Shown: positions 24,324 to 45,615 of the stretch, piece by piece | Layout of the letters: each line of letters begins with the position of its first letter | How positions within the stretch are numbered: position 1 is the stretch's first letter | Assembly: GCA_030429345.1 (NCBI GenBank) | Contig: JAUIFJ010000026.1 | Location: 1 to 46,740 of the forward strand | Source: a bacterium | GTDB taxonomy: Bacteria > CAIWAD01 | Reading direction: 5' to 3' | Length of the DNA: 46,740 nucleotides | The notes under the pieces: generated by a model | Databases searched by the model: none | The model's input: only the letters and a program-made list of their open reading frames with translations | What the model was told of the DNA's origin: nothing | Translations under genes and position numbers: made by a program

Positions 24324-24393
24324 CTTCTTGCTGGCGAAGAAGAAGTGCCTGTTCCCCGAACAGCAAATGCCCTAAACAGTGAAGGAAAGAGTT

Positions 24394-25371: not shown

Positions 25372-25393
25372 GCACCCTTTCGTCCAGAACCTG

Positions 25394-25430
25394 AAAGCCC
25401 CTGTCGTTCTTGCGGCAGGGGCTTTTCCTT
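25394..25430 (+). terminator. Rho-independent terminator after paralog 2
   Basis: Stem AAAGCCCCTG / CAGGGGCTTT (25394-25425) followed by TTCCTTTTCC. The rest of the 350-base gap up to 25721 carries the sigma-54 promoter of paralog 3 and no supported gene. Confidence 0.85.
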
Positions 25431-25649
25431 TTCCTTCAACTCCTGCTCGTCCTGGCTGACGCCAGCAACAAGTCCCGGCACCACTACCAGTCCTACCGGC
25501 CCAGCACGCATCCAAATCCGCACTCCTGCCGGAATCTGCACACTCACCCCGAAATCCGACAGAAAAAGCACACTTTTACAGTCTGGTCACAAAGCTGGCT
25601 TCGCGCTTAAAGCATTGTGTTTATTCAGTGTGGGAGCTCCACGACTGGA

Positions 25650-25666
25650 TTGGCACAATGCTTGCC
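25650..25666 (+). promoter_or_regulatory. Sigma-54 promoter (third secreted paralog)
   Basis: TTGGCAC-AATGC-TTGCC: GG at 25652-25653, ten bases, GC at 25664-25665. It lies 56 bases before the ATG at 25722. Confidence 0.85.
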
Positions 25667-25721
25667 AAAGATTGCAGAAATTAGCAACCACCAATCCTTA
25701 GGACTTTTGAAGGGGGAACAA

Positions 25722-28976: not shown

Positions 28977-29611
28977 CTTTCGGCCCCTTCTGCGTGCCCC
29001 TGGGGCAGGTCCTCGTAGCCCGTGATCATGGCGACGAAATTGCTGGCGGGCGTGTGACCCGTCGTCGCCAGGTAGATGTGCGACACCAGGAAGACCAGCA
29101 GCATCCAGGCCAGCAGCAGGTGCAAGCTCGCCAGCAGGCCGATCCAGGTGGGTGGAAGCATGCCGCGCAAGCCTGCATGGCCGCTCCAGAGCAGGAGGCC
29201 GCTGAAAACCTGTCCCGGCAGGGCGATATTGAGCAGCGCCAGGTAGGTCAGCTTCTGCAGCGGATTCAGCTTGGCCTGGCGCGTCTTCTCCACAGGATGG
29301 TCCTCGCCGCGGAAAATGCCTCCCGTGTAATACCTGGCCTGCCGCAGGGCCAGGCCGAAGAATCCCGGGTCGTCGGGCAGGAACTGCAGGATCTCCCGCG
29401 AGAAGATGTGGTACAACAGCCCCAGCAGGGCATTGAGCGCCAGCGCCAGGCCGGCCCAGCGATGCAGGAACTCGGCGAAACGGAAATCCAGCAACAGCGG
29501 CAGGTCGGGACGGTGCACGACCGCTCCGGTCCAGAAGAGCAGCAGGATCACGCCGGCCTGGACCCAGTGCCAGGCGCGCTCGTGCAGGTCATACATTCGA
29601 ACGCGTTGCAT
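28973..29611 (-). CDS. Membrane cytochrome b (di-heme, FdnI/PhsC-like)
   Basis: 212 residues with four membrane helices. Conserved His residues that can bind two b-type hemes occur in YDLHERAWHW, FLHRWAGLALALN, SLHLLLAWMLL and VSHIYLATTGH; the TGH and the closing MITGYED are typical for the cytochrome b subunit of formate dehydrogenase and thiosulfate reductase. It should pass electrons between the quinone pool and the multiheme cytochromes encoded just upstream. GGAGAATCC precedes the ATG; it overlaps the heptaheme gene (TGATG) and the next gene (ATGA). Confidence 0.93.
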   Translation of the reverse strand: MQRVRMYDLHERAWHWVQAGVILLLFWTGAVVHRPDLPLLLDFRFAEFLHRWAGLALALNALLGLLYHIFSREILQFLPDDPGFFGLALRQARYYTGGIFRGEDHPVEKTRQAKLNPLQKLTYLALLNIALPGQVFSGLLLWSGHAGLRGMLPPTWIGLLASLHLLLAWMLLVFLVSHIYLATTGHTPASNFVAMITGYEDLPQGHAEGAER

Positions 29612-31110
29612 CAGGATTCTCCTTCCCGCCGGGAACCGGCGCGCCAGCGCAGGAAGCCATGGCTGCAGACCGCCACCAGGGTCGCCATCAGCAGGACCAG
29701 TCCTGTGACGTCGAGCATGGCGCTCTTCTGTCCGGGCATGTACCCGTGGTTCCCGCGTGCGGATTGTGCGACAAGCCCCTGGCCCGCGACCGGCAACAGG
29801 GTGGGCTCGGTGTATACATCTTGGGGATCGCGGAAGGGGGGCGCCTCCCCGTCCGCGGACAGCGCGACGGGCATGCGAAAAGAGGCAGCCTCCGGATGAT
29901 GGCAGCTGCCGCAGTCCCGCAATGCCCGGCTTCCGTCCTGAATGCCGTGCTGCAGTTCGACAATGCGCAGTTCACGTCGGGCATCTTCGACCAGCAGGAC
30001 CAGGTTGACCGGAACATAGCGCGCCTTTCCCATGTGATCCGTCTTCTCAAGCAGCAGCGGTTTGGCACCCCTTTGCAGAAGGCGGCTGTCCGATGGCGGT
30101 CCCCCGGCTCCGCGCCAGCTGCTCTCCACGACCTTTCCCTGGGCCAGGCGTAGCTCGGCCAGGGCCCCGGCGGGCATTTCCGGAATATGGCATGCCCTGC
30201 AGTCCAGCCTTTCGAAATGCGATTCGCGGTAGGGCAGCCACTCGTGTGGCAGGAAAGGATCGTGGCAATCGCGGCAGCTGCGCATGTCCTGCGCCTCCCC
30301 GGCATCGCCGACGGAGGCGAGCCTGTGCGACGGCTGTTCCAGCCAGTCGCCGAAGCCCTGCCGTCGCGGTTCGTAGAGCAGGTGGGGCGGACTCAGGTCC
30401 GCGTCCAGCCTCCGCTGCATGGGATTGTCAATGCCGTGATGACAAGCCGTGCACTCGAGCAGCGCGCGGGCATGCACATCCCAGGGATCATGCCGGCCTG
30501 TCTTGTCCGCCAGGTTCAGCGGGCTGTCGGACAGACGCTGCGCCGAGTAGAACTGCCCCTGCCAGGCCCAGTCCGCGGGAACAGCATCCTGCAGCAGTGC
30601 GTCGCCGCCGCCCGCTTCGGCCAGGCCATGGCAGGTGCCGCAGCTCGAGCGGCTGCCTGCCTGCAGCGGCAGGCGATCCACGGGCCAGGCGCCATCGGGT
30701 CCGAAAGCATCCGTGTTCCAGGCCAGGGCTTCCGGGTCCACCAGCTCGCTGGCCGCCAGGGTCGCCATGCCGGCGTGCTCCGCATCCCCTTCGGACAGCC
30801 GGCGGATCCGCTGCGGCAAGTCGGCCTGGTCCAGGTGGCAGGCGAAACAGTCCGGTACCGGGTCGCCTTCCGTATACAGCCAGTCGCTGCTGGCCGCCTC
30901 GCCAGGGCCGCCGCCCAGTCCCGGCGTGTGGCTGCTGTGCGTCGAGATGTACTCCACATCGTGACACGACCCGCAGCTCTGGACGAAGTCGTGGGGCCGG
31001 GCAGTCGAGGTCACCGGTCGCCCCGCATTGTCCAGCAGCCGGAAGTCCGGATGGGCCGCCTGCAGCGGCACCGCGCCGAGCAGCGGGAGCAGGAACACCA
31101 GGATCCTCAT
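29611..31110 (-). CDS. Heptaheme c-type cytochrome with C-terminal membrane anchor
   Basis: 499 residues. A signal peptide is followed by seven CxxCH motifs (CGSCH, CFACH, CGTCH, CTACH, CRDCH, CRACH, CGSCH). A single hydrophobic segment near the C-terminus (MLDVTGLVLLMATLVAVCS) anchors it in the inner membrane, with the hemes outside. It most likely relays electrons between the cytochrome b and the octaheme protein. It starts four bases inside the octaheme gene (ATGA 31107-31110), so translation is coupled. I do not recognise a named family. Confidence 0.9.
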   Translation of the reverse strand: MRILVFLLPLLGAVPLQAAHPDFRLLDNAGRPVTSTARPHDFVQSCGSCHDVEYISTHSSHTPGLGGGPGEAASSDWLYTEGDPVPDCFACHLDQADLPQRIRRLSEGDAEHAGMATLAASELVDPEALAWNTDAFGPDGAWPVDRLPLQAGSRSSCGTCHGLAEAGGGDALLQDAVPADWAWQGQFYSAQRLSDSPLNLADKTGRHDPWDVHARALLECTACHHGIDNPMQRRLDADLSPPHLLYEPRRQGFGDWLEQPSHRLASVGDAGEAQDMRSCRDCHDPFLPHEWLPYRESHFERLDCRACHIPEMPAGALAELRLAQGKVVESSWRGAGGPPSDSRLLQRGAKPLLLEKTDHMGKARYVPVNLVLLVEDARRELRIVELQHGIQDGSRALRDCGSCHHPEAASFRMPVALSADGEAPPFRDPQDVYTEPTLLPVAGQGLVAQSARGNHGYMPGQKSAMLDVTGLVLLMATLVAVCSHGFLRWRAGSRREGES

Positions 31111-32540
31111 TGGGCCACCACCTTTCCCTGCTTGCGCCGCCCGCCAACCAGCAGCGGATCCTCCTGGTAGCCCAGGGCTTCCCAGTCCATGCGCGATTGC
31201 TCCCCGTGGCAGTCGTCACACTGCAGCGAACGGCTCTTCTCGGCGACCATGTGAGACAGAGGCCAATACATTTCCGTTTCGGTGAAGCCGTAGCTGCCGC
31301 TGTAGGGGATTCCGCTGGCCTCGCTTCCCAGTTCCAGGGCCTGGTCCCAGTCGTAGGTCGTCCAATAGCCGCCGGGTCCGAAGGTCTTCGGCACCAGCAG
31401 GGTCCGGTGTTCCGTGTCGTAGACCTGGCGGCCCCGGTGGATCTTGAAGGGCCAGATCCGCGCTTGCTCGTCGCGGATGTCTCCCAGGGGTCCCGCCAGG
31501 ATGGTCGGTTGCTCGGCCAGGCTGTCCCCGGCCAGGTAGTGGCGGGCCTTGCCGTTGTACCACTCGTACTCGGGAACCACCTCGTGCTCCCACTCGAAGG
31601 CGCCCTTCCTGGCCATGTAGCGGTGGGGATCGGCGACCGCGCGTTCGCGCTCCCTGTCCCCGGCGACGGACCAGTCCCAGAACAGCTTGGTGCCTTCGTC
31701 CTGGGCCATTTCCGGAATATGGCAGGTCTGGCAGGCCAGGGTCCGGCCATGGAGATTGAGCCGCTCGTCGTCGTGCGGCGATTCCGTGTGACACTGATCG
31801 CATGTCACACGCTGATCGCTCTCCAGGCTGACCGAAATGGCCCGCCCCGGAATCCTGTGCTCCTCGGTCCAGTGGCAATCCGTGCACTGGAAGTCGTGCT
31901 TGCCCATGTGCACGTCGAGGCGCGGACCGGGATGCAGCAGGCTCTGGTCCAGGTCTCCGTGCTTGACAGCGTTTCCGCCGCCGCCGTTGAAGTGGCAGCT
32001 TCCGCAGGTCTGCCGGCTGGTCGGTCCGACGCTGGCCGCGACCAGGCGCAGATCGACGGCGGGATCCGGCAATCCGGACAGTCCCTTGCGATAGCTTCCG
32101 CTGCCGTCGTGGCAGACCAGGCAGTCCACGTTCTCCTCGATGGAGAAATCGAACTCGGCATCCTTCCAGCCATAGCCCGCGTGGCAGGTCGTGCAGCGAG
32201 GCCAGTTCGACTCCACCCCTATACAGAAGTTGTTCAGGGCATTGGCCTTGCCGAAGCGGATCGGCGCTTCACCGGGCCGCACTTCCATGGGACTGCCCTG
32301 CCAGTTCCAGTGGGCTGTCTGCTGCACATGTTTCGCGGCCTCTTCGTGGCAGGCAAGACAAGTGCGGGTGACTTCCGGACCGCTGGCCAGGCTGTCCGTG
32401 TAGAAAGGGGAATGATCCAGGGGTTTTCCACGCGTCGGAAGGTGTTCCCAGGGATCGTTGCCCTGGACTGCTCCCGGCAGGAGCGCGCCCAGCAAAAGCG
32501 CGTGCAGCAGGATCTGTGCCGTCATATGGATCCGGTTCAT
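31107..32540 (-). CDS. Octaheme c-type cytochrome, tetrathionate reductase family
   Basis: 477 residues with a signal peptide and eight CxxCH motifs (CLACH, CTTCH, CLVCH, CGSCH, CTDCH, CDQCH, CQTCH, CDDCH). NALNNFCIGVESNWPRCTTC and the following AGYGWKDAEFDF, VDCLVCHD and FNGGGGNAVKHGDLD are close to the octaheme tetrathionate reductase family. The characterised Shewanella enzyme reduces tetrathionate and also nitrogen compounds, so the substrate here is a family-level guess. I chose ATG 32538-32540 (AGGAAGAG upstream). It is first in the leftward operon, beside a candidate FNR-type site. It is not related to the molybdenum Ttr enzyme. Confidence 0.92.
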   Translation of the reverse strand: MNRIHMTAQILLHALLLGALLPGAVQGNDPWEHLPTRGKPLDHSPFYTDSLASGPEVTRTCLACHEEAAKHVQQTAHWNWQGSPMEVRPGEAPIRFGKANALNNFCIGVESNWPRCTTCHAGYGWKDAEFDFSIEENVDCLVCHDGSGSYRKGLSGLPDPAVDLRLVAASVGPTSRQTCGSCHFNGGGGNAVKHGDLDQSLLHPGPRLDVHMGKHDFQCTDCHWTEEHRIPGRAISVSLESDQRVTCDQCHTESPHDDERLNLHGRTLACQTCHIPEMAQDEGTKLFWDWSVAGDRERERAVADPHRYMARKGAFEWEHEVVPEYEWYNGKARHYLAGDSLAEQPTILAGPLGDIRDEQARIWPFKIHRGRQVYDTEHRTLLVPKTFGPGGYWTTYDWDQALELGSEASGIPYSGSYGFTETEMYWPLSHMVAEKSRSLQCDDCHGEQSRMDWEALGYQEDPLLVGGRRKQGKVVAQ

Positions 32541-32873
32541 GGAACTCTTCCTTTGGAAATGCATCGGCGGACAAGGTAACCGAATAGCTATTTAGATATT
32601 TGACGAAGATCAATATTGACCAATTAATCCTACTCGCTCATCAAGCTGGATTTTGCCCATTGCCTATTGAATTATCACAGGTTGTGATTGGATCGAAAGA
32701 GTGCCACAGAAAGCTCTGCATGATTTTGTTCAATAAGTCAATCAACTAGCCACTGCATAAACAACCACCAAGACAGCTCTACATAATGATATGTTCATGA
32801 AAGCATGAGTCAGGTCAAGAGTCCCGGCCCGCCAACCCTATACAATGGAGGCAGTCAGATTTCCGGAGGGCGC
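32541..32873. promoter_or_regulatory. Shared divergent promoter region of the two respiratory operons
   Basis: 333 bases, clearly more AT-rich than the flanking genes. It contains TTGAC-GAAG-ATCAA at 32600-32613, close to the FNR/CRP-type consensus TTGAT-N4-ATCAA, about 60 bases before the octaheme start. AT-rich stretches such as CATAATGATATG near 32790 could serve the rightward operon. No gene is seen. Confidence 0.55.
32600..32613. promoter_or_regulatory. FNR-like binding site
   Basis: TTGAC-GAAG-ATCAA matches 9 of 10 defined positions of the FNR/DNR consensus TTGAT-N4-ATCAA. Its place between two anaerobic-type respiratory operons supports oxygen control; no FNR gene is in the window. 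Confidence 0.45.
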
Positions 32874-35096
32874 ATGGAACGCAGGGAGTTTCTGAAAATC
32901 GGCGGAGCGGGTGCAGCGGGGAGCGTGCTCCTGGGCGGCCTTGGAACGGACTGGTTCGGCAGCTACGGAGACGAGATCAAGGATCCCGGCAGCGACGGAG
33001 AGAAGATCGTTCCCAGTTTCTGCGAACTCTGCTTCTGGAAATGCGGCATCCTGGCCCATGTGCGCAATGGCCGCGTCACCAAGATCACCGGCAATCCAAA
33101 GCATCCGCTGTCGCGCGGCCGCCTTTGCCCGCGCGGCGCGGGCGGGACCGGCCTGCTCTATGATCCGGACCGCCTGCAGCAACCCCTCGTGCGCGTCGGC
33201 AAGCGCGGGCAGCAGAAATTCGAGGCCGTCAGCTGGGACACCGCCCTGGACGAAGTGGCCGAGGGCTTCGAGAAGATCCGCCGGCAACACGGACCCGAGC
33301 ACCTGGCGCTGTTCTATCACGGCTTCGGCGCCAACTGGATGAAGCACCTCTTCAAGGCCTACGGCAGTCCCAATATCAGCGCCCCCAGCTACGCCCAGTG
33401 CCGCGGTCCCCGCGACGTGGGCTTCGACCTGACCTTCGGTTCCGGTGTCGGTTCTCCGGAGAACACGGACATGGCCAACACGCGCTGCCTGGTGCTCATC
33501 GGAAACCACCTGGGCGAGAACATGCACAACACGCAGGTCCAGGATTTCAGCGAAGCGATCCGCAACCGGGCCGACCTGATCGTCGTCGATCCCCGCTTTT
33601 CCGTCGCCGCCTCAAAAGCGCGCTATTGGCTGCCGATCCGCCCGGGTTCGGATCTGGCCCTTCTGCTGGCCTGGGCCCATGTCCTGGTCCACGAGGGCGG
33701 GTACGATCGTGAGACGGTCAACCAGCACGGATACGGCTTCGACGCCTTTCGCGAGCACCTGAAAAGTCACACGCCGGAGTGGGCCTATCCGCGCACGGGC
33801 ATCAAGCCTGCCGTGATCCGCGAAACCGCCGCCCTGATGGCCGGTGCCGCGCCGCGCGCCATCGTCCACCCCGGGCGCCATGTGACCTGGTATGGCGACG
33901 ACACGCAGCGCAGTCGCATGATCGCCCTGGTGAATGCCCTGCTGGGATCCTGGGGACGGCGCGGCGGCTTCCTCGTCCCCTCGCAGGTCGAACTGGCCGA
34001 CTATCCGATGCCCGAGATCAGGAAGAACGGCCTCCAGCCGGCGGACCGTCCGGCGGCCAGCCAGTACCCGCTGGCCGACACGGTTCTGGCCCAGGGCCTG
34101 TGCAACGCCACCATACCCGGGTATCACGACTACGACCTCAAGGGCTGGATGGTCTACGGCAGCAACCTGCCGACCACCCTGCCCGATCCGCGCAAGACCT
34201 ACGAGGCGATTCGCAAGCTGGATTTCCTTGTCACCATCGATGTGCTCCCGGCGGAGATCTGCGGCTGGTCCGACGTGGTCCTGCCCGAATGCACCTACCT
34301 GGAGCGCTGCGACGACCTGCACAACCCGTACTACAAGGAACCCTATGTCGCCGTACGACAGAAGGTCGTCGAACCGCTCCACCAGACGAAACCCGGCTGG
34401 TGGATCGCGCGCGAGCTCGCCGACCGGCTGGGCCTGGAGCAGTTCTTTCCCTGGAAGGACAGCGAGGAGTACGCCATGGAACGCGCCCACGGCGCCGGTC
34501 TGGACTGCGAGACCCTGCGTCGCGACGGCGTCGCGACGGGCGTGTCCCCGCCGACCTGTGTCGAGGACGGCCTGCGCCCCGAGTTCTGGACCGACAGCGG
34601 GAAGATCGAGTTCTACAGCAACCGGCTGCAGCAGGCCGGCTTCGACCCCATGCCGGTCTACACCGATCACGGCGACCCGCCCGCCGGCTACTTCCGTCTG
34701 CTCTTCGGCCGCACGCCGACGCACACCTTCGGTCGTACGACAAACAATCGCCTGCTGTCGGAGACCTTCAAGGGCAACGAGGTCTGGCTCAACGCCGAGA
34801 CGGCCCGTCTGCGCGGCCTCAAACACGGCGAGCAGGTCTACCTCCAGAACCAGGATGGCGTGCGCAGCAGTTTCAGCGCTCCCCTGAAGGTCACGGAGCG
34901 CATTCGTCCCGACGCCGTCTTCCTGGTGCACGGCTACGGCCGCAAGGCCAGGGAGCTGCGTTTCGCCTTCGGCCGCGGCATCGACAGCGCGGAACTTGTC
35001 ACACAGGCGAAAGTGGATCCGATCATGGGCGGCACGGGCATGAACGTGAACTTCGTCGCGATCCTGCGCGCGGAAGATGTCGAGGAGGTGGCCTGA
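32874..35096 (+). CDS. Molybdopterin oxidoreductase catalytic subunit, PsrA/PhsA-like (polysulfide/thiosulfate reductase)
   Basis: 740 residues. The N-terminus RREFLKIGGAGAAG is a twin-arginine signal, so the enzyme is exported folded. A [4Fe-4S] site follows (CELCFWKCGI ... LCPRG), then molybdopterin-binding regions. SYAQCRGPRD near residue 176 supplies the likely Cys ligand to molybdenum, as in PsrA/PhsA. GRTPTHTFGRTTNN near the C-terminus is part of the cofactor-binding domain. It is followed by the B and C subunit genes, the classic order for polysulfide, thiosulfate or tetrathionate reductases. ATG 32874 follows GGAGG; a longer frame from 32805 lacks support. Exact substrate and direction cannot be told. 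Confidence 0.92.
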   Translation: MERREFLKIGGAGAAGSVLLGGLGTDWFGSYGDEIKDPGSDGEKIVPSFCELCFWKCGILAHVRNGRVTKITGNPKHPLSRGRLCPRGAGGTGLLYDPDRLQQPLVRVGKRGQQKFEAVSWDTALDEVAEGFEKIRRQHGPEHLALFYHGFGANWMKHLFKAYGSPNISAPSYAQCRGPRDVGFDLTFGSGVGSPENTDMANTRCLVLIGNHLGENMHNTQVQDFSEAIRNRADLIVVDPRFSVAASKARYWLPIRPGSDLALLLAWAHVLVHEGGYDRETVNQHGYGFDAFREHLKSHTPEWAYPRTGIKPAVIRETAALMAGAAPRAIVHPGRHVTWYGDDTQRSRMIALVNALLGSWGRRGGFLVPSQVELADYPMPEIRKNGLQPADRPAASQYPLADTVLAQGLCNATIPGYHDYDLKGWMVYGSNLPTTLPDPRKTYEAIRKLDFLVTIDVLPAEICGWSDVVLPECTYLERCDDLHNPYYKEPYVAVRQKVVEPLHQTKPGWWIARELADRLGLEQFFPWKDSEEYAMERAHGAGLDCETLRRDGVATGVSPPTCVEDGLRPEFWTDSGKIEFYSNRLQQAGFDPMPVYTDHGDPPAGYFRLLFGRTPTHTFGRTTNNRLLSETFKGNEVWLNAETARLRGLKHGEQVYLQNQDGVRSSFSAPLKVTERIRPDAVFLVHGYGRKARELRFAFGRGIDSAELVTQAKVDPIMGGTGMNVNFVAILRAEDVEEVA

Positions 35097-35644
35097 TGCT
35101 CGAGCAGCAATTCGGCATGACCGTGGATACGCGCACCTGCGTCGGCTGCGCCGCCTGCGTGATCGCCTGCAAGACCGAGAACCGGCTGGCGGAGGGCTAC
35201 GTCCGCAACTGGATCACGACCCAGACCCGCGGCCGTTTTCCGGAACTGGTGATGACGATCCGCTCCGAGCGCTGCAACCATTGCCGCAGCGCGGCCTGCG
35301 TGCGCGCCTGCCCGACCGGTGCATCACACTATGCTGCCGGCGGAACCGTACAGGTGACCGGGTCCAAGTGCACCGGCTGCAAGGCCTGCATGGCCGCCTG
35401 CCCCTATGACGCGCGCTATGTCGACGAGCAGAGCGGCACCGTCGACAAGTGCACCTTCTGCAATCACCGCACCAGCCGCGGCATGGCGACCACGGCCTGC
35501 CAGGAGGTCTGCCCGACCCGCAGCATCGTCTTCGGGGATCTCAACGATCCGGACAGCGAGATCTCCCACCTGCTGGCGCAGCGTGACTGGTATACACTCA
35601 AACCGGACGCCGGCACGCGCCCCAGCCACTACTTCCTCAAGTAG
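35096..35644 (+). CDS. Iron-sulfur electron-transfer subunit, PsrB/PhsB-like
   Basis: 182 residues with sixteen Cys in four ferredoxin-type groups (CVGCAACVIACKTEN, RCNHCRSAACVRACP, KCTGCKACMAACPYDARY, KCTFCNHR...ACQEVCP), enough for four [4Fe-4S] clusters. It should carry electrons from the membrane subunit to the molybdenum subunit. There is no signal peptide, so it is probably exported as a complex with the Tat-signalled A subunit. The ATG overlaps the A-subunit stop (TGATG), with GGAGG upstream. Confidence 0.95.
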   Translation: MLEQQFGMTVDTRTCVGCAACVIACKTENRLAEGYVRNWITTQTRGRFPELVMTIRSERCNHCRSAACVRACPTGASHYAAGGTVQVTGSKCTGCKACMAACPYDARYVDEQSGTVDKCTFCNHRTSRGMATTACQEVCPTRSIVFGDLNDPDSEISHLLAQRDWYTLKPDAGTRPSHYFLK

Positions 35645-35652: not shown

Positions 35653-36609
35653 ATGGAAGCCACCTCGACACGCGCCAATCCGCTGGTGGACCCGGGTCTG
35701 ACGATCTGGAACCAGGATGTGGCGATCTACCTCTTCCTGGGCGGCATTGTCGCCGGCGTCATGATCCTGAGCGGCGCCATGCGCCTGTGGTACAAACAGG
35801 AAGAACCCAGCCTGGCCCTGCGGTTGCTGCCCTGGGGCAACCTGGCGCTGATCAGCATCGGCATGTTCTGCCTTTTCCTCGACCTGGAGAACCGCTTCAA
35901 CTCCTGGCGCTTCTACCTGGTCTTCAAGGCCTACTCGCCCATGAGCTGGGGCGCCTGGGTGCTGCTGCTGGTGTATCCGGTTTCGGCGCACATGGCGTGG
36001 GCGGAAACCCCTGCGCATTGGCGGGAAACCGTGTTGCGAAAGGTTCCCCTGCTGCGGCCCTGGGGGGAATGGAGCGTCCGCGCCCGTCGCAATTTCGCCG
36101 CCCTGAGCATCGTCAGCGGCAGCGTGCTCGGCATCTACACCGGCATCCTGCTGGGCGCCATGCCCAGCCGCCCCTTCTGGAACAGCAGCCTGCTCGGGCC
36201 CCTGTTCCTTGTTTCCGGTGTATCGACCGGGGCGGCCTTCATGCTCCTGTTCAGGCTGAACCAGGGCGAACGCCGCTTCCTGGGCTTCCTCGATTTCCTG
36301 CTGATTCTCGCCGAACTGGGCATCATCGCCCTCTGGATCATCGGCATGGCGGCGGGGGGCGAGGCCAGCCTGCAGGCCCTGAAACTGATCTTCGGCGGTC
36401 CGTATACGGCCGCCTTCTGGTCGCTGGTCATCGCCCTGGGGCTCGTGACACCGGCCATTGCCGAGTTCATCGAATACAAGCACCGCGCCATCCCGGGTCG
36501 CGGCGCGGCACTGCTCGTGCTGGGCGGGGGATTCGCCCTGCGCTGGATCATGGTATACGCGGGGCAACACTCCGGCTGGGCCAGCGAGGCCTCGGCCGGC
36601 CTGTTCTAG
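35653..36609 (+). CDS. NrfD/PsrC-family membrane subunit
   Basis: 318 residues with eight membrane helices. LGGIVAGVMILSGAMRL near the start and SPMSWGAWVLLLVYP in the middle are NrfD/PsrC landmarks. This integral subunit exchanges electrons with quinones and anchors the A and B subunits. It follows the B gene by eight bases, with AGGAG before the ATG. Together the three genes make a complete Psr/Phs-type complex. Confidence 0.95.
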   Translation: MEATSTRANPLVDPGLTIWNQDVAIYLFLGGIVAGVMILSGAMRLWYKQEEPSLALRLLPWGNLALISIGMFCLFLDLENRFNSWRFYLVFKAYSPMSWGAWVLLLVYPVSAHMAWAETPAHWRETVLRKVPLLRPWGEWSVRARRNFAALSIVSGSVLGIYTGILLGAMPSRPFWNSSLLGPLFLVSGVSTGAAFMLLFRLNQGERRFLGFLDFLLILAELGIIALWIIGMAAGGEASLQALKLIFGGPYTAAFWSLVIALGLVTPAIAEFIEYKHRAIPGRGAALLVLGGGFALRWIMVYAGQHSGWASEASAGLF

Positions 36610-36619: not shown

Positions 36620-37129
36620 ATGAATACGCGCAGCTACTGGAACCCCTACCTGGCCGGAGTCCTGCTCGGCCTGGCCCTGCTGGCGGCCTTCGTCGTTGCA
36701 GGCCAGGGCCTGGGCGCCAGCGCTTTTCCCAAGCGCGTGATCGCCGGGGCCTGTGATGTCTTCAGTCCGGAATGGACCGCCGGCAGCGCCGCCTTCGGCA
36801 AGTACGTCGGCAGCGGAAACCCGCTGGCCAACTGGCTGGTGGTCGAGGTGATCGGCGTGCTTATCGGCGGCTTCCTCGGCGCGGTGAGCGCCGGACGCCT
36901 GAAGGGCGAAGTCGTCCGCAGTTCCAATGTGACACAGGGCCGACGCCTCTTCTTCGCCCTGCTGGGCGGAGTGATCATGGGCTTCGCCGCCTCCCTGGGG
37001 CGCGGCTGCACATCCGGGCAGGCCCTGTCGGGCGGGGCCAGCCTCGCCGGCGGCAGCTGGGCCTTCATGATGATGGTCTTCGCCGGCGGCTATGCCGTCG
37101 CCTGGTTCGTGAGGAAACAATGGATCTGA
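36620..37129 (+). CDS. YeeE/YedE family sulfur transporter half (rightward operon)
   Basis: 169 residues with four to five membrane helices. SYWNPYLAGVLLGLALLAAF at the start and GFAASLGRGCTSGQALSGGA near the end match the short YeeE/YedE protein of the leftward operon (28446-28976), including the conserved Cys. It should form one split transporter with the next gene, which it overlaps by ten bases. GGAGA precedes the ATG at 36620. Placement after psrABC-like genes suggests that it moves the sulfur compound used or produced by that complex. Confidence 0.93.
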   Translation: MNTRSYWNPYLAGVLLGLALLAAFVVAGQGLGASAFPKRVIAGACDVFSPEWTAGSAAFGKYVGSGNPLANWLVVEVIGVLIGGFLGAVSAGRLKGEVVRSSNVTQGRRLFFALLGGVIMGFAASLGRGCTSGQALSGGASLAGGSWAFMMMVFAGGYAVAWFVRKQWI

Positions 37130-38313
37130 CCTTCCCCTGGCTCCCGCGCGGCTTCTTCGGAGAACAGGGCGGCCTGCTGACGGCCCTCCTGATTGGCGCG
37201 GTCTTCGGTTTCGCCCTGGAACGGGCGGGCTTCGGCAACGGGCGCAAGCTGGCGGCCCAGTTCTATTTGTACGACATGACGGTCTTCAAGGTCATGTTCA
37301 CCGCCATCGTCACGGCCATGGTGGGCCTCTACGCGCTGTCAGGAGTCGGCCTCGTCCAGCTGGATCTGGTCTGGATCAATCCGACCTACCTGGCGCCCCA
37401 GCTGCTGGGCGGTTTCCTGCTGGGCGTGGGCTTCATTGTCAGCGGCCTGTGTCCGGGCACGGCCTTCGTGTCCCTTGTCTCGGGCAAACTGGATGCACTC
37501 GTCGTCCTGGTCGGCGTCTTCCTGGGTGTGCTGCTCTTCGCTTTCGGCCTGGATGGGCTGCCTGCACTGGAGGCCCTGTATACGAGCGGCTCGGGCGAGG
37601 TCCTGACCCTGCCGGGACTGCTGGGGATCTCCGGCAGCTGGCTGGCTGCCGGCGTGGCCCTGATGGCCCTGGGCGCCTTCATCGGCGCGGAGAAGGTGGA
37701 AGAGCGGATGGCGGCGCGCCTGAAGAAGAACGGCGCGGACCTGGATGGAAGCCGTGTGACAGATTCCCGGGGCAAGTACTGGGCCATGGGCAGCCTGCTG
37801 GCCCTGAGCCTGCTAGCGGCCACCGCCGCGCCGATGCTGGAGCAGGAAAACCCGCGGCAACTGGTGGCGAGCGGAGTGCGCCCCTTGCCCCTGGCCGAGC
37901 GCATCATCGCCCATGAACCAGCGCTGCGGATCCTGGACCTCCGGGAAGCCGGAACGGACCTCAGGATTCCGGGACTTGGAAAGGCATCTCCCACATCCCC
38001 TCCGGCCGATCTGCTGCCGGGCCAGCACGTGGTGCTGATCGCCGAGGGCGACCTGGACGCGAAGGACCTGGCGGGCTGGCCGCAAGGACCGGAGTACGAA
38101 GTCCTGGAAGGGGGCGCCCAAGCCTGGAAGGAACAGGTCCTGACGCCACTGGAGGCCGAAGTATACAACCAGGAGGCGCTGGACCGGGCGAAGGTCCAGA
38201 ACGAGATCTGCGCCTGGTTCAACGGGACGGAAAGCAAGGCGGTCAGCGCACCGCCGCCGCCCGTGATCCAGCCGGCCGTCGGCTCGCGCAAGAAACCCAA
38301 GGGCGGCTGCTAG
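37120..38313 (+). CDS. YeeE/YedE sulfur transporter half fused to a Cys-less rhodanese-like domain with GGC tail (rightward operon)
   Basis: 397 residues. The membrane part has AVFGFALERAGFGNGRKLAAQ and GFIVSGLCPGTAFVSLVSGKLD, matching the long transporter of the leftward operon with its conserved Cys. The C-terminal part is a degenerate rhodanese-like domain (LRILDLREAG, then HVVLIAEGDLDAKD and VLEGGAQAWKEQVL) in which the usual Cys loop is replaced by AEGD. A linker rich in Pro leads to the end, SRKKPKGGC. GAGGAAACA precedes the ATG at 37120. The last 45 bases (38274-38318) occur again at 41268-41312 beside the IS110 element. I infer that sulfur is handed on through the terminal Cys. Confidence 0.88.
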   Translation: MDLTFPWLPRGFFGEQGGLLTALLIGAVFGFALERAGFGNGRKLAAQFYLYDMTVFKVMFTAIVTAMVGLYALSGVGLVQLDLVWINPTYLAPQLLGGFLLGVGFIVSGLCPGTAFVSLVSGKLDALVVLVGVFLGVLLFAFGLDGLPALEALYTSGSGEVLTLPGLLGISGSWLAAGVALMALGAFIGAEKVEERMAARLKKNGADLDGSRVTDSRGKYWAMGSLLALSLLAATAAPMLEQENPRQLVASGVRPLPLAERIIAHEPALRILDLREAGTDLRIPGLGKASPTSPPADLLPGQHVVLIAEGDLDAKDLAGWPQGPEYEVLEGGAQAWKEQVLTPLEAEVYNQEALDRAKVQNEICAWFNGTESKAVSAPPPPVIQPAVGSRKKPKGGC

Positions 38314-38318
38314 TCGCG
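38274..38318 (+). repeat. Direct repeat copy A (gene tail)
   Basis: 45 bases covering the last codons (VGSRKKPKGGC), the stop codon and five bases beyond it are identical to 41268-41312. Confidence 0.95.
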
Positions 38319-38390: not shown

Positions 38391-39557
38391 TCAGAAGGCG
38401 CTTGTCACACCGAATACCAGCCGGTTCGCCTCCCGCTCAGCGTCTCGTGTGCCTTCGAGAATCAATCGCAGGTTCCGCGCCACGAGAACCGTACCCGACA
38501 AGGTCCAGGTCTCGAAATCGTGCACATCAAGGTCCGAATCGATCCGGTTGTATAGACCAGTCATCATCCAGCGGGACTGCTCGCCCCGGGGCATATAGAT
38601 CAGTTCAGCGCAGATGCCGCTGGTCTCGATCTCCTCGCCATCGCTGAAGGTCGGATCACTGTCCGTGCGCAGGAGGTACTGGCCGGTAAAGGCAAGAGGT
38701 CCGACTCCAATGCCGATATCCGGCCCCATGTAGGTCACTTCATTGGTATACGTGCTTGATGCGGGCTGTTCCTTGCCAATGTATACGAAGCCGCCCAGCG
38801 AGAACAAGTCCCCGAAGCCCTGCAGCACGCGCAGGCCGGCATTCTTGTAGCGGTCGGAATCGTAGGTCTTCTCCGCTCCGGACTGCGGAATGCCGTTCCC
38901 GTTCACGATGAATCCCACCAGGTCGGTCCCGGTCTGCTCGATCCCGTAGACAAGCATCATGCCGCGGTCATAGGCCAGGTTCGTGCTCGAATCGCCGATG
39001 CGGGTCTTGTAGATCTCGTAATCCTGCACCGTGAGACGCAGTTCGCGCTTCATCAGGGGATCCGATGTCTGGAACTGCCCGACCATCACATCCAGGGGCG
39101 TATCAAAGATGTTGTCGAAATGGACGTAGGCGTCCTCGACGCCCGCAACTTCCCCGTGTTCGGACATGTAGAAGTAGAAATAGTAGCCGATGTTGCGGTA
39201 CAAGGTCCCGCCGGAAAGCAGCTTGACTCCCCAGGGGGTCTGCAGGTCCGTCGTTGCCTCGGACTCGGAATCCCAGGTCGCAAAAGCGTCGAAGCGCGCC
39301 GCCAGGGGAAAGTCCTTGTTCAGCCAGAGCATCTTGTCGCCCGCCGTCACGTAGTCGCGTTCCTTCTCGCTTTCTTTCATGATGAAGCCGTTGCCGGCGA
39401 ACTCCTCGCCGTAGGCCGTCAGGCGCGGGAAGGGGGCATGGCATGTCGTACAGGAAACCTTGTATCTCCTGGCGAATGCCGGGATCGCCCATGTGCTCTG
39501 TGCGGAGATGACCAGCGTAAGCAGCGTCAACAGGATGAAACGGGAACGCGGACTCAT
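38391..39557 (-). CDS. Outer-membrane porin-like protein with N-terminal c-type heme motif
   Basis: 388 residues: a signal peptide, then AFARRYKVSCTTCHAPFPRL with one CxxCH heme site, then a series of amphipathic beta strands (for example GGTLYRNIGYYFYFYMS) ending in Phe, as expected for an outer-membrane barrel. The phrase CxxCHxxFPRLxxYGEEF is typical of porin-cytochrome proteins found with extracellular or metal-linked electron transfer. It follows the pentaheme gene by 24 bases on the same strand, with CTGGAGG before its ATG. Together they may carry electrons across the outer membrane (inference). Confidence 0.88.
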   Translation of the reverse strand: MSPRSRFILLTLLTLVISAQSTWAIPAFARRYKVSCTTCHAPFPRLTAYGEEFAGNGFIMKESEKERDYVTAGDKMLWLNKDFPLAARFDAFATWDSESEATTDLQTPWGVKLLSGGTLYRNIGYYFYFYMSEHGEVAGVEDAYVHFDNIFDTPLDVMVGQFQTSDPLMKRELRLTVQDYEIYKTRIGDSSTNLAYDRGMMLVYGIEQTGTDLVGFIVNGNGIPQSGAEKTYDSDRYKNAGLRVLQGFGDLFSLGGFVYIGKEQPASSTYTNEVTYMGPDIGIGVGPLAFTGQYLLRTDSDPTFSDGEEIETSGICAELIYMPRGEQSRWMMTGLYNRIDSDLDVHDFETWTLSGTVLVARNLRLILEGTRDAEREANRLVFGVTSAF

Positions 39558-39581
39558 TGGATCCTCCAGATGAAGATGGTT

Positions 39582-40922
39582 CTATTCGTAGACTTCGAAC
39601 CATGTGAATTGCGAGTTGACGAGCATCGGCTCGCTTTCTTCCTCAGGCACGTCTAGCAGTTCCGCAACGGGTCCTACCAGCAGACTGTAGTTCAGGCTGG
39701 CATGGACCTCGACCCTGCCCTCGGCGATTTCGTCGGGCAGCTCCCAGGTGAAGGTCTCGATTTTTGTCTCACGGGGTTCGAAGCGGTAGTCGACCCCCAG
39801 GGAGGCCGTGTTCCATTGCATGATCGTCATCCGGCCCTGGTCATCGAAATAGGGCATGCGGAAAATGCGGTCCCCGAAGGGCACGCCATCCCTCTGCACG
39901 CCCTCGAAGTCCGGAAGATCCAGCGGGACCCCCAGGTCCTGGTAGGCCAGCACATCGGCAGCGATCGTATACTCTTCCCCTTCGAAGCCTTTCGGATCGA
40001 CGGGCAGGTGGAAACGCTGCCCCTCGGAATCGACCGCTTCCACATGCAGCCAGAGAATCCGGTCCTCCACCGAACCCGTCGGAAATTTGTGTCCCGTCTT
40101 GCCGTTGAAGAGCTGGACCTGGACCACGACGGTTCCACCCGTTTCCACTTCGCGCTCATCCGGGTGCATCCGCAGCTCGATCGTTCCCCGGACCTTGCCT
40201 GGATCATGCGCTCCATGGAAGAGGTGCTGGGCAACCATGTCTTCGTCGGCCATGCTGGCTGACCGTCCCTTCGCCCTGGGCATGTGGCACTGCTGGCAGG
40301 GCACGCCCTGCTCGGCGTAGGGGCCTTCTTTCCATTCCAGGTGCGTCGATTTGACCCAGACACCGCTTGGCGCACGTTCGTTGTGGCAGATGCCGCAGAA
40401 TTCGGCCTGGCTGAAAAGCGAGTTGGCCTCCGTGTCGTGATGCGGCGACTCCCGTCCGGGCTTCGAGCCTCGCTTCACTCGACCGGGATCGACCACGTAG
40501 TTGAAGTTGAAAGGCAGATCCCCGCTGAATCCGGTAATCGAATGACAGAAGTCGCAGCTGACGGACTCGTTGGCGCGGGAGTTCTCCGAAGGCCTGGGTG
40601 GGGGAATATCGCCGGCAAGCCATGCCAGGGGCGCATGGCAGCCATTGCAGCCGTCTACGGCATCCTTGAAGCGGGGATCCTTCTCGGCATGCTTGACGGC
40701 CAGGTCGAAGTATTCGATTTCGTCCCAGTGATGGGTGAAAGCCTTGCTCATCATCGACTGGTCCCATTGCCAGTAGATGTCCGTGTGACAGGCCTTGCAC
40801 GCTTCGGGACTTTCGAAGTCATCGTAGGACAGACTGCCCCGGGTGGAAGTGGCCCCCTGTTCAGCAGCCAGGACAGCAGTGGTCACGAAGAGGAGCAGAC
40901 AGGCGGGAGAGAGGCAGGACAT
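39582..40922 (-). CDS. Pentaheme c-type cytochrome (cytochrome c554-like) with beta-sandwich tail
   Basis: 446 residues with a signal peptide and five CxxCH motifs (CKACH, CNGCH, CDFCH, CGICH, CQQCH). The arrangement EACKACHTDIYWQWDQSMMSKA and SVSCDFCHSITG recalls the cytochrome c554/c-prime family. From about residue 240 to the end it has a beta-rich domain (GGTVVVQVQLFNGKTGHKFP) seen in many multiheme cytochromes of unknown substrate. GGAGGCGCA precedes the ATG. First gene of a two-gene operon with the porin-cytochrome. Confidence 0.9.
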   Translation of the reverse strand: MSCLSPACLLLFVTTAVLAAEQGATSTRGSLSYDDFESPEACKACHTDIYWQWDQSMMSKAFTHHWDEIEYFDLAVKHAEKDPRFKDAVDGCNGCHAPLAWLAGDIPPPRPSENSRANESVSCDFCHSITGFSGDLPFNFNYVVDPGRVKRGSKPGRESPHHDTEANSLFSQAEFCGICHNERAPSGVWVKSTHLEWKEGPYAEQGVPCQQCHMPRAKGRSASMADEDMVAQHLFHGAHDPGKVRGTIELRMHPDEREVETGGTVVVQVQLFNGKTGHKFPTGSVEDRILWLHVEAVDSEGQRFHLPVDPKGFEGEEYTIAADVLAYQDLGVPLDLPDFEGVQRDGVPFGDRIFRMPYFDDQGRMTIMQWNTASLGVDYRFEPRETKIETFTWELPDEIAEGRVEVHASLNYSLLVGPVAELLDVPEEESEPMLVNSQFTWFEVYE

Positions 40923-41267
40923 TGCGCCTCCGTCAACTAAATGATTCTATGCCATTAGTCGTAAAACTAAGTGTTGTCTGTCACACTTTCAATCTGATTC
41001 GGCAGTCATGCGCCCTTGATTCATCGGAACCCTACGGGCATGGGCTCTCCGGGCATCCGTTCCGTGAGGTCAGGATACGCACCCTGTGAACGAGGCCACT
41101 GGAGATTTGCTTTGCCTAAGTTTATTCTGCGTTCCTGCTTTCCTGGGAATACGGATAATATTCGTTTTCCGAAATGCGCGCACAGCCTTCCGCCTTGGGC
41201 TGCCTGCTGATAGTCCATCGCCGAATCTCTCGTTGAAAGAAAAGCGAAGCACCACGAAAAACCAGCT

Positions 41268-41312
41268 GGCCGTCGGCTCGCGCAAGAAACCCAAGGGCGG
41301 CTGCTAGTCGCG
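41268..41312 (+). repeat. Direct repeat copy B (orphan tail of the YeeE-rhodanese gene)
   Basis: Identical over 45 bases to 38274-38318, including the codons for VGSRKKPKGGC and the stop. The sequence before it bears no resemblance to the rest of the gene, so this is a stranded 3' fragment. It lies about 90 bases upstream of the presumed left end of the IS110 element. Confidence 0.9.
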
Positions 41313-41403: not shown

Positions 41404-42701
41404 CTTAGACCTTATGGAACGACCGGGCCCCCTTCTTCGTGGGTTCAACGGAGTTGAGAGCCACATTGGTGTGTTGGTCAACAATCACCAAAACGAGAGG
41501 ACCCGGTCATGACGCAACCTACCACTTCCACGGTTTGGATCGGCATGGATGTGCACCAGGATTCCATTTCCCTGGCCTACATGCTCAATGACGAGAAGCA
41601 GCCCACGGTGATGAAGCTGGGTGGGGACCTGCATGCTGTCCGCAGGCAGTTTCGTCGGCTGGCAAAAAAGGGGACGCCGAGGGCTTGCTACGAGGCCTCA
41701 GGTGCAGGCTATGTCCTGCAACGGCGACTGACTCAGGACGGCTTTCACTGCGAAGTGATTGCTCCCAGCCTGATCCCGAAGAAACCGGGTGACCGAAGGA
41801 AGACGGATCGGCTGGACGCGATCCACCTGGCAAGGATGTACAGAAGTGGAGACCTGACACCCGTCGCCGTGCCGAACGAGGTCCAGGAAGAAGTGAGACA
41901 ACTGGTGCGAACACGGCTCTCGGTCCAGAGGGAAGTTGTACGACTGAAACACCGGATCGTACGCGTTCTTGCCACACACGGCCACCGCTTCACCGGAACG
42001 AAGAGCAACTGGACCAAGGCCCACCGGGCATGGCTTCGACAACTGCGAAAGCAGCTGGAGGGTCCGCTTGGAGATGTCCTCCAACTTCACCTGGACCAGT
42101 TGGAGTACAGCGAATCCCAAAGAAGCGCCCTGGATCAGCTGATCGAGAAGTGGGCCGGCAGGGAACCTTTCCGTGAGACGGTCGAAGCCCTGCGCTGCTT
42201 TCGGGGAATTGAAACCCTGACGGCAATGACCTTGGCCAGCGAGATTGGGGACATCCGGCGGTTCTCCGGTGCACGACAACTAATGGGCTACAGTGGACTG
42301 ATTCCGGGCGAAAGGTCCAGCGGTGCAGTGGAAAGGCGAGGGCCGATCACGAAAAATGGCAACGCCTATTTGCGCAGGGTGCTGGTGGAGGCAGCATGGC
42401 ACTACCAGCACAGAAACGGGGCACAGCTGATTCTGCGGCGAAAGCGGCAGGGGCAGTCGCCCTCCGTCGTTGCGACTGCTGTCAAGGCGCAGCATCGTCT
42501 CTCAAGGAGATACTGGCATCTGCTGCAGACGAAACACAAGAACAAGGCGATCACCGCCGTGGCGCGTGAGCTCTGCGGATTCGTCTGGGCCGCCATGAAC
42601 CAGGTGGCCTGGATTTAAAGCCATGGATCTGAAGTCTGTGTGACGAAGGAGGATCCTCGTCTGAAATATGCGACAGCCATCGGCTGATTCGCGGTCTTAG
42701 A
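41404..42701 (+). mobile_element. IS110-family insertion sequence (ends approximate)
   Basis: The transposase gene (41509-42618) is flanked by non-coding stretches without terminal inverted repeats, as is usual for IS110. CTTAGA occurs at 41404-41409 and 42696-42701 and could mark the ends, giving about 1.3 kb, but this is tentative. GACCGGG at 41421-41427 can pair with CCCGGTC at 41502-41508 directly before the ATG; the left end is where IS110 elements encode a bridge RNA. Confidence 0.55.
41509..42618 (+). CDS. IS110-family transposase (DEDD)
   Basis: 369 residues, full length and apparently intact. The N-terminal RuvC-like DEDD domain shows WIGMDVHQDSI (Asp14), RACYEASGAGY (Glu62) and KTDRLDAIHLARM (Asp100, Asp103). 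The C-terminal transposase_20 domain has FRGIETLTAMTLASEIGD, ARQLMGYSGLIPGERSSG (candidate catalytic Ser) and TKNGNAYLRRVLVEAAW. These enzymes insert DNA using a bridge RNA that pairs with donor and target. GAGAGG precedes the ATG. No other copy is in the window. Confidence 0.95.
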   Translation: MTQPTTSTVWIGMDVHQDSISLAYMLNDEKQPTVMKLGGDLHAVRRQFRRLAKKGTPRACYEASGAGYVLQRRLTQDGFHCEVIAPSLIPKKPGDRRKTDRLDAIHLARMYRSGDLTPVAVPNEVQEEVRQLVRTRLSVQREVVRLKHRIVRVLATHGHRFTGTKSNWTKAHRAWLRQLRKQLEGPLGDVLQLHLDQLEYSESQRSALDQLIEKWAGREPFRETVEALRCFRGIETLTAMTLASEIGDIRRFSGARQLMGYSGLIPGERSSGAVERRGPITKNGNAYLRRVLVEAAWHYQHRNGAQLILRRKRQGQSPSVVATAVKAQHRLSRRYWHLLQTKHKNKAITAVARELCGFVWAAMNQVAWI

Positions 42702-42874: not shown

Positions 42875-43834
42875 TCATTTCACCAGCAGCATCTTGCGGC
42901 TCAGGCTGCCGGCCGGCGTCTCGAGCATGTATACGTATACGCCGCTGGCCAGGTTGCTGGCGTCGAAGACCACTTCGCTCTCTCCGGCAGGCTGCAGGCC
43001 GTCGACCAGTACGGCCACCTGGGAGCCCTGCAGATCAAACACGGTCAGACGGGCCTCGCTGGTTTCCGCCAGCGAGAAGGCGATCGTCGTGGTCGGGTTG
43101 AAGGGATTGGGGTGGTTCTGGGCCAACTCGTAACCGACAGGAAGATCCTGCGTGTCGGAGGTCCGCTGGCAATTGAAATTCATGGCGCCGACACCGTAGT
43201 CGACGGCGGCATTGTTGGCATTCTGCACCAGTTCGATGATGATCTCGTCTACATCGGAGGGATCGACGCCATCGAAGTCGGCCAGCATGAAGACGGCCTG
43301 CACGTGGCTGTCTCCGTCGAAATAGGTCGGGCTGCAGTGCAGCATGCCGGACTCCGTGTCCGCGACGCCGTTGGATACGAGCGTCACGCTGATCGGCGTG
43401 CCGTCCGGTCCGCTGCCGTTGCAGTCCGTGTCGAGCTGTCCGTAGAAGTTGAGCACCAGGCGATCCGAATCACACCCGGTGGTCAGATCCAGGTCCAGGT
43501 CGTTCTGGTAGCCGTAGTGCAGCGACCACTCGGCCTGGTTGTTGAACGCGCTGTTGAAGGTCAGCGTGCCGCCCTGCCAGGTGGACTGCCCCACGTAGGG
43601 CGAATAGTCGCTGCCGGCGATCTTGTGAAAGGTCGTGTGACGATTGCCGCCGAGAATCCCGGCATCGAAGACATCATCGCTTCCAGTCATTCCCACGGGA
43701 ACCGGTGTTCCATAGAAGGTGAAGCCCAGGTAGGTGTCACCGGCCGTAAAGTCATCGATCAGGACATCCGCCGAAACGGTGAACAGGACGCCTGTCAGGG
43801 CATAGATGGATAGAGCACGAAACAGTCTGGACAT
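42875..43834 (-). CDS. Secreted sorting-domain protein
   Basis: 319 residues. A signal peptide is followed by a beta-rich passenger (DDFTAGDTYLGFTFYGTPV at its start, later SDRLVLNFYGQLDTDCNGSG) that looks like a lectin- or carbohydrate-binding-type sandwich, though no named family is certain. A linker MNFNCQRTSDTQDLPVGYEL leads to the sorting block NPFNPTTTIAF, LTVFDLQGSQVAVLVDG, SNLASGVYVYML and a final RKMLLVK. The linker CQRTSDT.DLP is shared with the gene at 44458. ATG 43832-43834 follows AGGAGAAG. No sigma-54 element was found upstream. Function unknown. Confidence 0.88.
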   Translation of the reverse strand: MSRLFRALSIYALTGVLFTVSADVLIDDFTAGDTYLGFTFYGTPVPVGMTGSDDVFDAGILGGNRHTTFHKIAGSDYSPYVGQSTWQGGTLTFNSAFNNQAEWSLHYGYQNDLDLDLTTGCDSDRLVLNFYGQLDTDCNGSGPDGTPISVTLVSNGVADTESGMLHCSPTYFDGDSHVQAVFMLADFDGVDPSDVDEIIIELVQNANNAAVDYGVGAMNFNCQRTSDTQDLPVGYELAQNHPNPFNPTTTIAFSLAETSEARLTVFDLQGSQVAVLVDGLQPAGESEVVFDASNLASGVYVYMLETPAGSLSRKMLLVK

Positions 43835-44457: not shown

Positions 44458-45297
44458 ATGAAACACTCCTCCCTGCTTTCACTAGCGGGCTGCGCGCTGG
44501 CTTGCGCGCTGGCGCTTGCACCTCGTGCCGTACAGGCGGATGTTCCCGCCTACGGCACGGCGACAGTCGACGGCTCTTTTGCCGAATGGGATCTGGTCAA
44601 TGACTTCTTCGCACCGATGCACAATGCGGGGAATCCCAGTCATCCGATCCTGTCCAACCTGTATCTCCGCTACGACTGCGCCGAGAATCTACTCTACATC
44701 CTGGTGCTGGATCTGGACGACGGCTTGCCGGTAGACCAAAACAATGGCGATGCCTGGGTCAAGATCTACCAGAACGGCTGGTCGAACAACAAACTGATTG
44801 ACGGCAGTGGCGCCGGCAACACAAGCCCGCGCGGTTTCGCCTGGATTCCGGACGGTTCCGGCGGAGTGCTCGGCTATGAGGCCTTCGCCAGTTTGCCCAC
44901 CGGATACTTCGAGCATTTCGAAGCACACATCAACATCAGCGGCAACACCTCCTCTTCCGGCAAGTATGTCCACGGAAACGACATCGACCTGAATGTGGAG
45001 TGCCAGCGCACTTCGGACACGGTGGACCTGCCCGGGACTTTCTCCCTGGCGCAGAACCATCCCAATCCTTTCAATCCTTCGACCACCATCGAGGTCCAGC
45101 TCAGTGAAACGGCCGTGGCCGGCCTGCGGGTATACGACCTTTCCGGGCGCACCGTGGCGACTTTGCATGACGGACTGCTGGCCCCCGGCGTGCACAGCTT
45201 CGCCTTCGACGCCAGTTCGCTGAGCAGCGGGATCTACTTCTACACCTTGCAGGTCGATGGTGACAGCCAGACCCGCCGTATGGTACTGCTGAAGTAA
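44458..45297 (+). CDS. Secreted sorting-domain protein with DOMON/CBM9-like passenger (pair member 1)
   Basis: 279 residues. After a signal peptide (cut near VQA) the passenger begins ATVDGSFAEWDLVNDFF, runs through LYLRYDCAENLLYILVLDL and contains DAWVKIYQNGW. This order resembles carbohydrate-binding family 9 or DOMON domains, which bind sugars or heme; the assignment is tentative. CQRTSDTVDLP links to the sorting block NPFNPSTTIEV, LRVYDLSGRTVATLHDG, SSLSSGIYFYTL and a final RRMVLLK. The downstream gene at 45616 is a clear paralog. AGGAAAG precedes the ATG. Terminator at 45320-45356. Confidence 0.9.
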   Translation: MKHSSLLSLAGCALACALALAPRAVQADVPAYGTATVDGSFAEWDLVNDFFAPMHNAGNPSHPILSNLYLRYDCAENLLYILVLDLDDGLPVDQNNGDAWVKIYQNGWSNNKLIDGSGAGNTSPRGFAWIPDGSGGVLGYEAFASLPTGYFEHFEAHINISGNTSSSGKYVHGNDIDLNVECQRTSDTVDLPGTFSLAQNHPNPFNPSTTIEVQLSETAVAGLRVYDLSGRTVATLHDGLLAPGVHSFAFDASSLSSGIYFYTLQVDGDSQTRRMVLLK

Positions 45298-45319
45298 GCT
45301 CCTGATCTATATGTCCTTC

Positions 45320-45356
45320 AAGCCCCCGGATCCTTGTGATTCGGGGGCTTTCTCTT
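45320..45356 (+). terminator. Rho-independent terminator
   Basis: Stem AAGCCCCCG / CGGGGGCTT with a long loop, followed by TCTCTTT. Confidence 0.85.
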
Positions 45357-45510
45357 TCCCGCCTCCTTCGAGGTCTGCCCGATGCAGGACACAGTGCAAA
45401 GTGATGACGGCCACTTCCGGCTTCCTGTCCCGGTCACGCCAGGGCTTTATGACATTTTTTTCATTGCAGCCGGTCAAAGGGCTTGCAGGTGTTGAGAAAT
45501 TGTGCCATTC

Positions 45511-45527
45511 TTGGCGCGGCTTGTGCC
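45511..45527 (+). promoter_or_regulatory. Possible sigma-54 promoter
   Basis: TTGGCGC-GGCTT-GTGCC: GG at 45513-45514, ten bases, GC at 45525-45526. The -24 part is good; the -12 part (TGTGC) is weaker than in the paralog trio at 23-26 kb. Confidence 0.5.
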
Positions 45528-45615
45528 CTAACACGTGCCACCCAACCAAAGACGAAAACACATACGCGCCTTGCGTGCAGGGCGGAGATTGAACTCTGCA
45601 AAGGGGAAAGAACCA

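Follow-up and report, generated by a model that had tools for sequence, protein, structure and literature searches.

A conserved cysteine tail on Cys-less rhodanese-like domains that accompany two-part YeeE/YedE-family pores

The route by which periplasmic sulfur gets to YeeE/SoxT-type channels has yet to be settled (PMC11582611). The window analysed here, a stretch of 46,740 nucleotides of bacterial DNA, raises this question in a concrete form. It encodes two long YeeE/YedE proteins, each bearing a rhodanese-like domain without its catalytic Cys and ending in a Lys-rich, Gly-flanked tail with one Cys. What is this Cys for, and on which side of the membrane does it work? On balance we think it probable, if only just, that each system is a membrane-tethered, SoxY-like sulfur-carrier arm, which serves a two-part YeeE pore and shuttles to a periplasmic respiratory enzyme.

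Two divergent operons with a pore in two genes

Both long ORFs are real, and they end as originally read from the sequence. The first (37120-38313, plus strand) has a product of 397 aa, in which a long YeeE half (the N-terminal half of PF04143) is followed by an extra transmembrane (TM) helix, the Cys-less rhodanese domain and the tail KKPKGGC, the C-terminal end being SRKKPKGGC. The second (27225-28442) repeats this YeeE-TM-rhodanese-tail order in 405 aa, ends in KKPKVVGGGCG, and lies on the minus strand, a point that the original prediction had left unstated. Pfam finds the N-terminal part of PF04143 (Sulf_transp) in both long proteins (39 and 58 bits, cut-off 27) and its C-terminal part in two short ORFs (82 and 73 bits, cut-off 27). 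These short halves, at 36620-37129 (plus strand, with GRGCTSG as the counterpart of the periplasmic channel Cys C293) and at 28446-28976 (minus strand, with RGCTSG), are each located directly upstream of the long-half ORF in their own operon. With the N-part in the long ORF and the C-part in the short one, each system is thus a two-protein YeeE pore.

The operons of the family take two forms, and the window holds both, divergent around 32600-32800. In the first, the short half and the long half with its rhodanese and tail follow a Tat-exported, PhsA/PsrA-like molybdopterin oxidoreductase (32805-35096, plus strand; best NCBIfam model PhsA, 494.7 bits, below the equivalog cut-off of 694), a 4Fe-4S electron-transfer subunit (35117-35644, plus strand, the start being approximate since an upstream ATG is possible) and an NrfD/PsrC-type membrane subunit (35653-36609, plus strand). 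In the second, they are joined by an octahaem cytochrome of the tetrathionate reductase (OTR) family (31107-32564; TIGR04315, 560 bits, cut-off 375), a multihaem cytochrome c (29611-31110) and a cytochrome b561-type membrane subunit (28973-29611), all on the minus strand. The partner enzymes of the tail operons are redox enzymes that face the periplasm.

The terminal cysteine and the rhodanese loop

Eight fused proteins, from the window and from other genomes, are 28-52% identical to the 37120 protein and all share the terminal Gly-x-Cys, while the rhodanese region shows little conservation. Scanning 84,980 species genomes gave 80 loci, found in Gemmatimonadota, Acidobacteriota, Bacteroidota/Ignavibacteria, Chloroflexota, Planctomycetota and KSB1, and also in Bdellovibrionales, Myxococcales, other 'Deltaproteobacteria' and Pseudomonadota (Lysobacterales, Vibrio); the family spans at least nine bacterial phyla. 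From the scan loci and 386 further genomes, mostly drawn from across the domain, 93 homologous C-terminal modules were assembled, and 91 of them have a Cys within the last three residues. At 50% identity they fall into 49 clusters, and the Cys is present in every member of 47. Among conserved neighbouring proteins the same placement is seen in only 6 of 298, a contrast that is far beyond chance, though the trials are not independent. Aligning 46 full-length fusions leaves just two invariant Cys, C397 in the tail and C111 of CPGT.

The tail of the 37120 protein (residues 369-397, 38224-38310), rich in Pro, Ala and Lys, ends with the invariant Cys397; that of the 27225 protein is encoded at 27228-27260 on the minus strand. 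The AlphaFold2 models of the two proteins have a mean pLDDT of 84 and 82, falling below 50 over the last residues of both, including the KKPKVVGGGCG segment, and both tails are predicted to be disordered. Across the family, the 14 residues before the Cys contain about 4.3 K/R and 0.8 D/E, and the commonest endings are EGC, GGC, GGCG, GLCS and GGCGG. A C-terminal Cys next to basic residues bears a superficial similarity to a metal-binding site or to a lipidation or sorting signal. However, the Cys stands alone with no His or Cys partners, no TM segment follows the Gly-Gly, no recognised sorting motif is present, and the 0 to 2 residues after the Cys vary among homologs; we therefore regard such a role as very improbable. 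At one locus, L030, the tail KKKKKEGC lies beyond an in-frame TGA, the only early stop seen. We considered selenocysteine at the tail and rejected it: the TGA falls at a linker position that is not conserved, and with the tail following it a point change is likelier.

The domain that precedes the tail has a rhodanese fold. In the 27225 protein (27408-27704, minus strand) PF00581 scores 31.9 bits against a cut-off of 22.2, and this is the only one of the two proteins to pass the gathering score. For the 37120 protein (residues 247-342, 37858-38145), the profile of the family alignment matches PDB rhodaneses, and the AlphaFold2 model gives VIA Z values of 9-10 against many rhodaneses over residues of about 247-342. 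Foldseek with the whole model returned nothing at E < 0.001, and the rhodanese domain came out on VIA re-alignment. No YeeE structure appears in the Foldseek and VIA lists, which says nothing against a YeeE fold.

When aligned with active rhodaneses, the segments VAEDEAS (27225) and IAEGDL (37120) fall on the catalytic loop, and the catalytic Cys is Ala in both (IAEGD in the latter). We aligned the 93 modules against eight active rhodaneses that these loci also encode. The catalytic column has a Cys in none of the 93, with Ser, Gly, Ala, Asp, Thr or Pro in its place, and none of the members sampled has an active loop; the eight active rhodaneses all have the loop Cys, and none has a tail Cys. 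An apparent loop Cys in L029 and L036 was discounted, as it falls just before the catalytic position in this alignment. Judged by these residues, the rhodanese domains of the tail family cannot be sulfurtransferases through the usual loop Cys. The coincidence of loop-Cys loss and tail Cys, first noticed in the two window proteins, thus extends to the whole family (catalytic Cys in 0/93, tail Cys in 91/93).

The original prediction had gone further and supposed that the reactive Cys moved from the loop to the tail. The pairing of dead loop and tail Cys stands; the move itself is conjecture, and two homologs have the tail without any rhodanese. These two, L042:849-2060 and L100:4932-5810, consist of a YeeE half, a TM helix and a short Pro-rich linker with a terminal Cys, so the arm can exist without the domain. 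Separate ORFs encode the YeeE half and the TM-rhodanese protein at 28 loci, where it is the rhodanese that bears the tail; 48 of 50 YeeE halves have no Cys at their end, the exceptions being L042 and L100. These two, with an arm and no rhodanese, suggest that function resides in the arm and that the rhodanese domain serves as its holder. A Cys-less domain with no tail Cys, the combination that would count against a link between the two, was found at L115 alone (2-949, 1432-2634), where the fused YeeE-rhodanese lacks the tail Cys, yet a multi-rhodanese ORF of the same locus ends in KPVRKGAGC.

Locus arrangements vary in other ways. L057 has two tandem rhodanese-tail ORFs, and one domain of the L115 multi-rhodanese protein has a Cys-bearing CNSSFRS loop. 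A separate, larger rhodanese-like protein is encoded upstream of the YeeE halves in L051, L063, L072 and L058; next to the YeeE halves of these four loci we recognised neither a full Psr nor a full OTR operon.

Membrane side and channel cysteines

In the YeeE of S. thermophila the channel Cys come in the order C293, C91 and C22, the third lying at the cytoplasmic interface with YeeD (PMC11073785). The position of C22 aligns with about G39, at the end of TM1; TM1 thus runs from outside to inside, and with six TM helices the C-terminal domain comes to lie outside. The extra helix (residues 217-243, 37768-37848) is accordingly predicted to run in-to-out and to take the C-terminal domain to the periplasm. 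Loop charges agree, the two main inside loops having a mean K+R of 2.2 and 3.0 and the outside loops 0.15-1.2, and K/R are richer before the last TM than after it in 53 modules, against 14 with the opposite trend. The stand-alone rhodanese-tail versions resemble signal anchors with a short basic N-terminus. Taken together, these features make it very probable that the rhodanese domain and the tail are periplasmic. The tail had been placed at the channel exit; its predicted side, from the positive-inside loops, the TM count, the C22-equivalent position and the signal-anchor stand-alones, does not support this, and in a pore that imports, the supposed exit would be the entrance on the periplasmic side.

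Two of the three channel Cys of TsuA-type proteins are kept. The C293-type Cys is present in all 82 short halves, and the C91-type Cys in all 46 long halves (in the 37120 protein it is C111 of CPGT, codon 37450-37452, the counterpart of the mid-channel C91 of S. thermophila YeeE; PMC11073785). The C22-type Cys is gone in all 46, with Gly, Ser or Ala instead. The TusA/YeeD family (PF01206) has no match in the genome of the window, and none in 12 of the 18 other genomes that bear the tail. In all it is absent from 13 of 19 such genomes, compared with its presence in about half of the 386, and the search control was positive in 11 of 14. A YeeD-type cytoplasmic acceptor is thus not required. The missing C22 and the missing TusA/YeeD weaken the case for a simple import relay that ends in the cytoplasm.

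The same two absences, together with the tight operon linkage to periplasmic redox enzymes, would fit a flow in the reverse direction, in which the pore releases a sulfur anion (sulfite, thiosulfate or sulfane) from the cytoplasm or membrane onto the arm, for delivery to the Psr or OTR enzyme. However, characterised YeeE/TsuA proteins import (PMC11073785), and we consider reverse flow unlikely. Import appears the more likely direction because the characterised YeeE relatives import.

A candidate sulfur-carrier arm

We propose the following for the carrier arm. The dead rhodanese would sit on the periplasmic face as the holder of a flexible arm that bears positive charge and a single Cys at its end. 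This Cys would be loaded with, or would present, a sulfur species (a persulfide or an S-thiosulfonate) where the periplasmic respiratory enzyme from the same operon has its active site, the enzyme being a Phs/Psr-type molybdoenzyme in one case and an octahaem OTR-type cytochrome in the other. The arm may then swing to the periplasmic mouth of the pore and exchange sulfur with the C293-type Cys, from which it would pass to the C91-type Cys. By its length, the tail Cys could plausibly reach the channel Cys. The binding of sulfur by the arm Cys, and the docking of the arm at pore and enzyme, are what we infer from tail-Cys conservation, the lost catalytic Cys, the rhodanese fold, tail disorder, the periplasmic side, the channel-Cys pattern and the partners.

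The closest parallel is SoxY, whose GGCGG Cys has an established sulfur-binding function (PMC6067878). Both have a small periplasmic domain and a flexible C-terminal Gly-Gly-Cys tail, and the likeness to SoxY that was originally suspected is borne out by homologs with literal SoxY-type ends (ISGGCGG, GGGCGG), some finishing exactly in GGCGG, and by the predicted disorder of the tail. SoxYZ has been put forward as a supplier of YeeE-like SoxT channels, and sulfur transfer from SoxY to the SoxT channel cysteines was independently considered conceivable (PMC11582611). In the tail family, however, the holder is rhodanese-like, the arm is Lys-rich and is anchored in or fused to the pore, and the partners are Psr/Phs enzymes or octahaem cytochromes instead of SoxAX/B. 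No SoxY domain (PF13501) was found by Pfam in the long or operon proteins, in the genome of the window or in the other tail-bearing genomes searched; since PF13501 has matches in 30 of 386 genomes, and over the cut-off in only 19 of 386, its absence from the tail-bearing genomes is statistically uninformative.

It is also conceivable, though quite improbable in our view, that the tail serves docking, assembly or redox switching, through a disulfide with an enzyme or channel Cys, and so keeps the pore and the respiratory enzyme attached to each other while carrying no substrate. Its lysines could provide electrostatic docking, its one invariant Cys might give a mixed disulfide, and pore and enzyme are encoded together. 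Nevertheless, a Gly-flanked terminal Cys on a disordered linker fits substrate-carrier arms such as that of SoxY better than a docking peptide, and the Cys is retained with two unrelated partners, the Mo enzyme and the octahaem cytochrome.

Other known systems share parts of the carrier-arm arrangement. YeeE/TsuA with YeeD/TsuB, which takes up thiosulfate, uses the same pore family with two of the three channel Cys in common, and its partner domain supplies an extra sulfur-handling Cys, as the tail does here. YeeD, however, works on the cytoplasmic side with a CPxP motif, whereas the tail family has its extra Cys on a tail in the periplasm, has lost the cytoplasmic channel Cys, and makes its pore from two genes. 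SoxT1A and SoxT1B of Hyphomicrobium are YeeE-like importers believed to receive sulfur from the Cys of a periplasmic carrier; their carrier is the separate SoxYZ, and the accessible text on them describes no fused rhodanese or carrier tail. The rhodanese fold is shared with YgaP-type and single-domain rhodaneses, and membrane-anchored rhodaneses exist, but in the tail family the catalytic Cys is absent in 93/93 and the candidate reactive Cys is on the tail. The tail family thus falls within the YeeE family and has the rhodanese fold, but it lacks the Cys of active rhodaneses as well as two features by which TsuA-type YeeE is defined, and its domain is not that of SoxY.

Across at least nine phyla, and beside respiratory enzymes of two unrelated kinds, the tail family appears to solve sulfur delivery by tethering the carrier to the pore. 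More tentatively, these may be widespread, undescribed machines in which a periplasmic swinging Cys arm on a two-part YeeE pore relays covalent sulfur between a respiratory sulfur enzyme and the transmembrane Cys, with the rhodanese as a mere, dispensable holder. We found no published account of such a tail in the literature open to searching, which covers few subscription journals. The proposal comes down to one testable residue, the last Cys, and cultivated carriers are available in Vibrio hangzhouensis and Melioribacter roseus. A likely pitfall of annotation is put right as well, as a rhodanese call in the tail family does not mean a loop-Cys sulfurtransferase.

Repeats and neighbouring sequences in the window

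The tail-end codons and stop of the 37120 gene lie within one copy of a 51-nt direct repeat (38268-38318), the other copy being 2.9 kb downstream (41262-41312); the two are identical at 50 of 51 positions and have unrelated flanks. Such a copy might indicate that the tail is a spurious in-frame extension derived from a repeated DNA element. We rejected this origin as barely credible: the repeat has only two copies in the genome, it lies outside the probable left end of the nearby IS110 element, and divergent homologs from many phyla have this tail encoded by dissimilar DNA and attached through differing linkers. Because these homologs carry the tail in other DNA sequence, the tail is native to the 37120 gene. 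The copy at 41262 ends a 73-aa ORF (41086-41307) that is probably not a gene. The IS110-family transposase is at 41509-42618, and the left end of its element is placed near 41401 by a second copy of the left part, which ends contig C1. Between the two copies of the 51-nt repeat, the minus strand (38391-40922) encodes a 388-aa predicted outer-membrane-like protein without a Pfam match and a 446-aa multihaem cytochrome. Elsewhere in the window, a family of secreted proteins, some of them tandem paralogs, whose C-terminal sorting domain is T9SS-like (SSGVYFYTL...TRKMVL), is encoded at 23156-26693, 42875-43834 and 44458-46452, and a repeat of approximately 300 nt with inverted-repeat ends is present in three tandem copies at 11901-12739.
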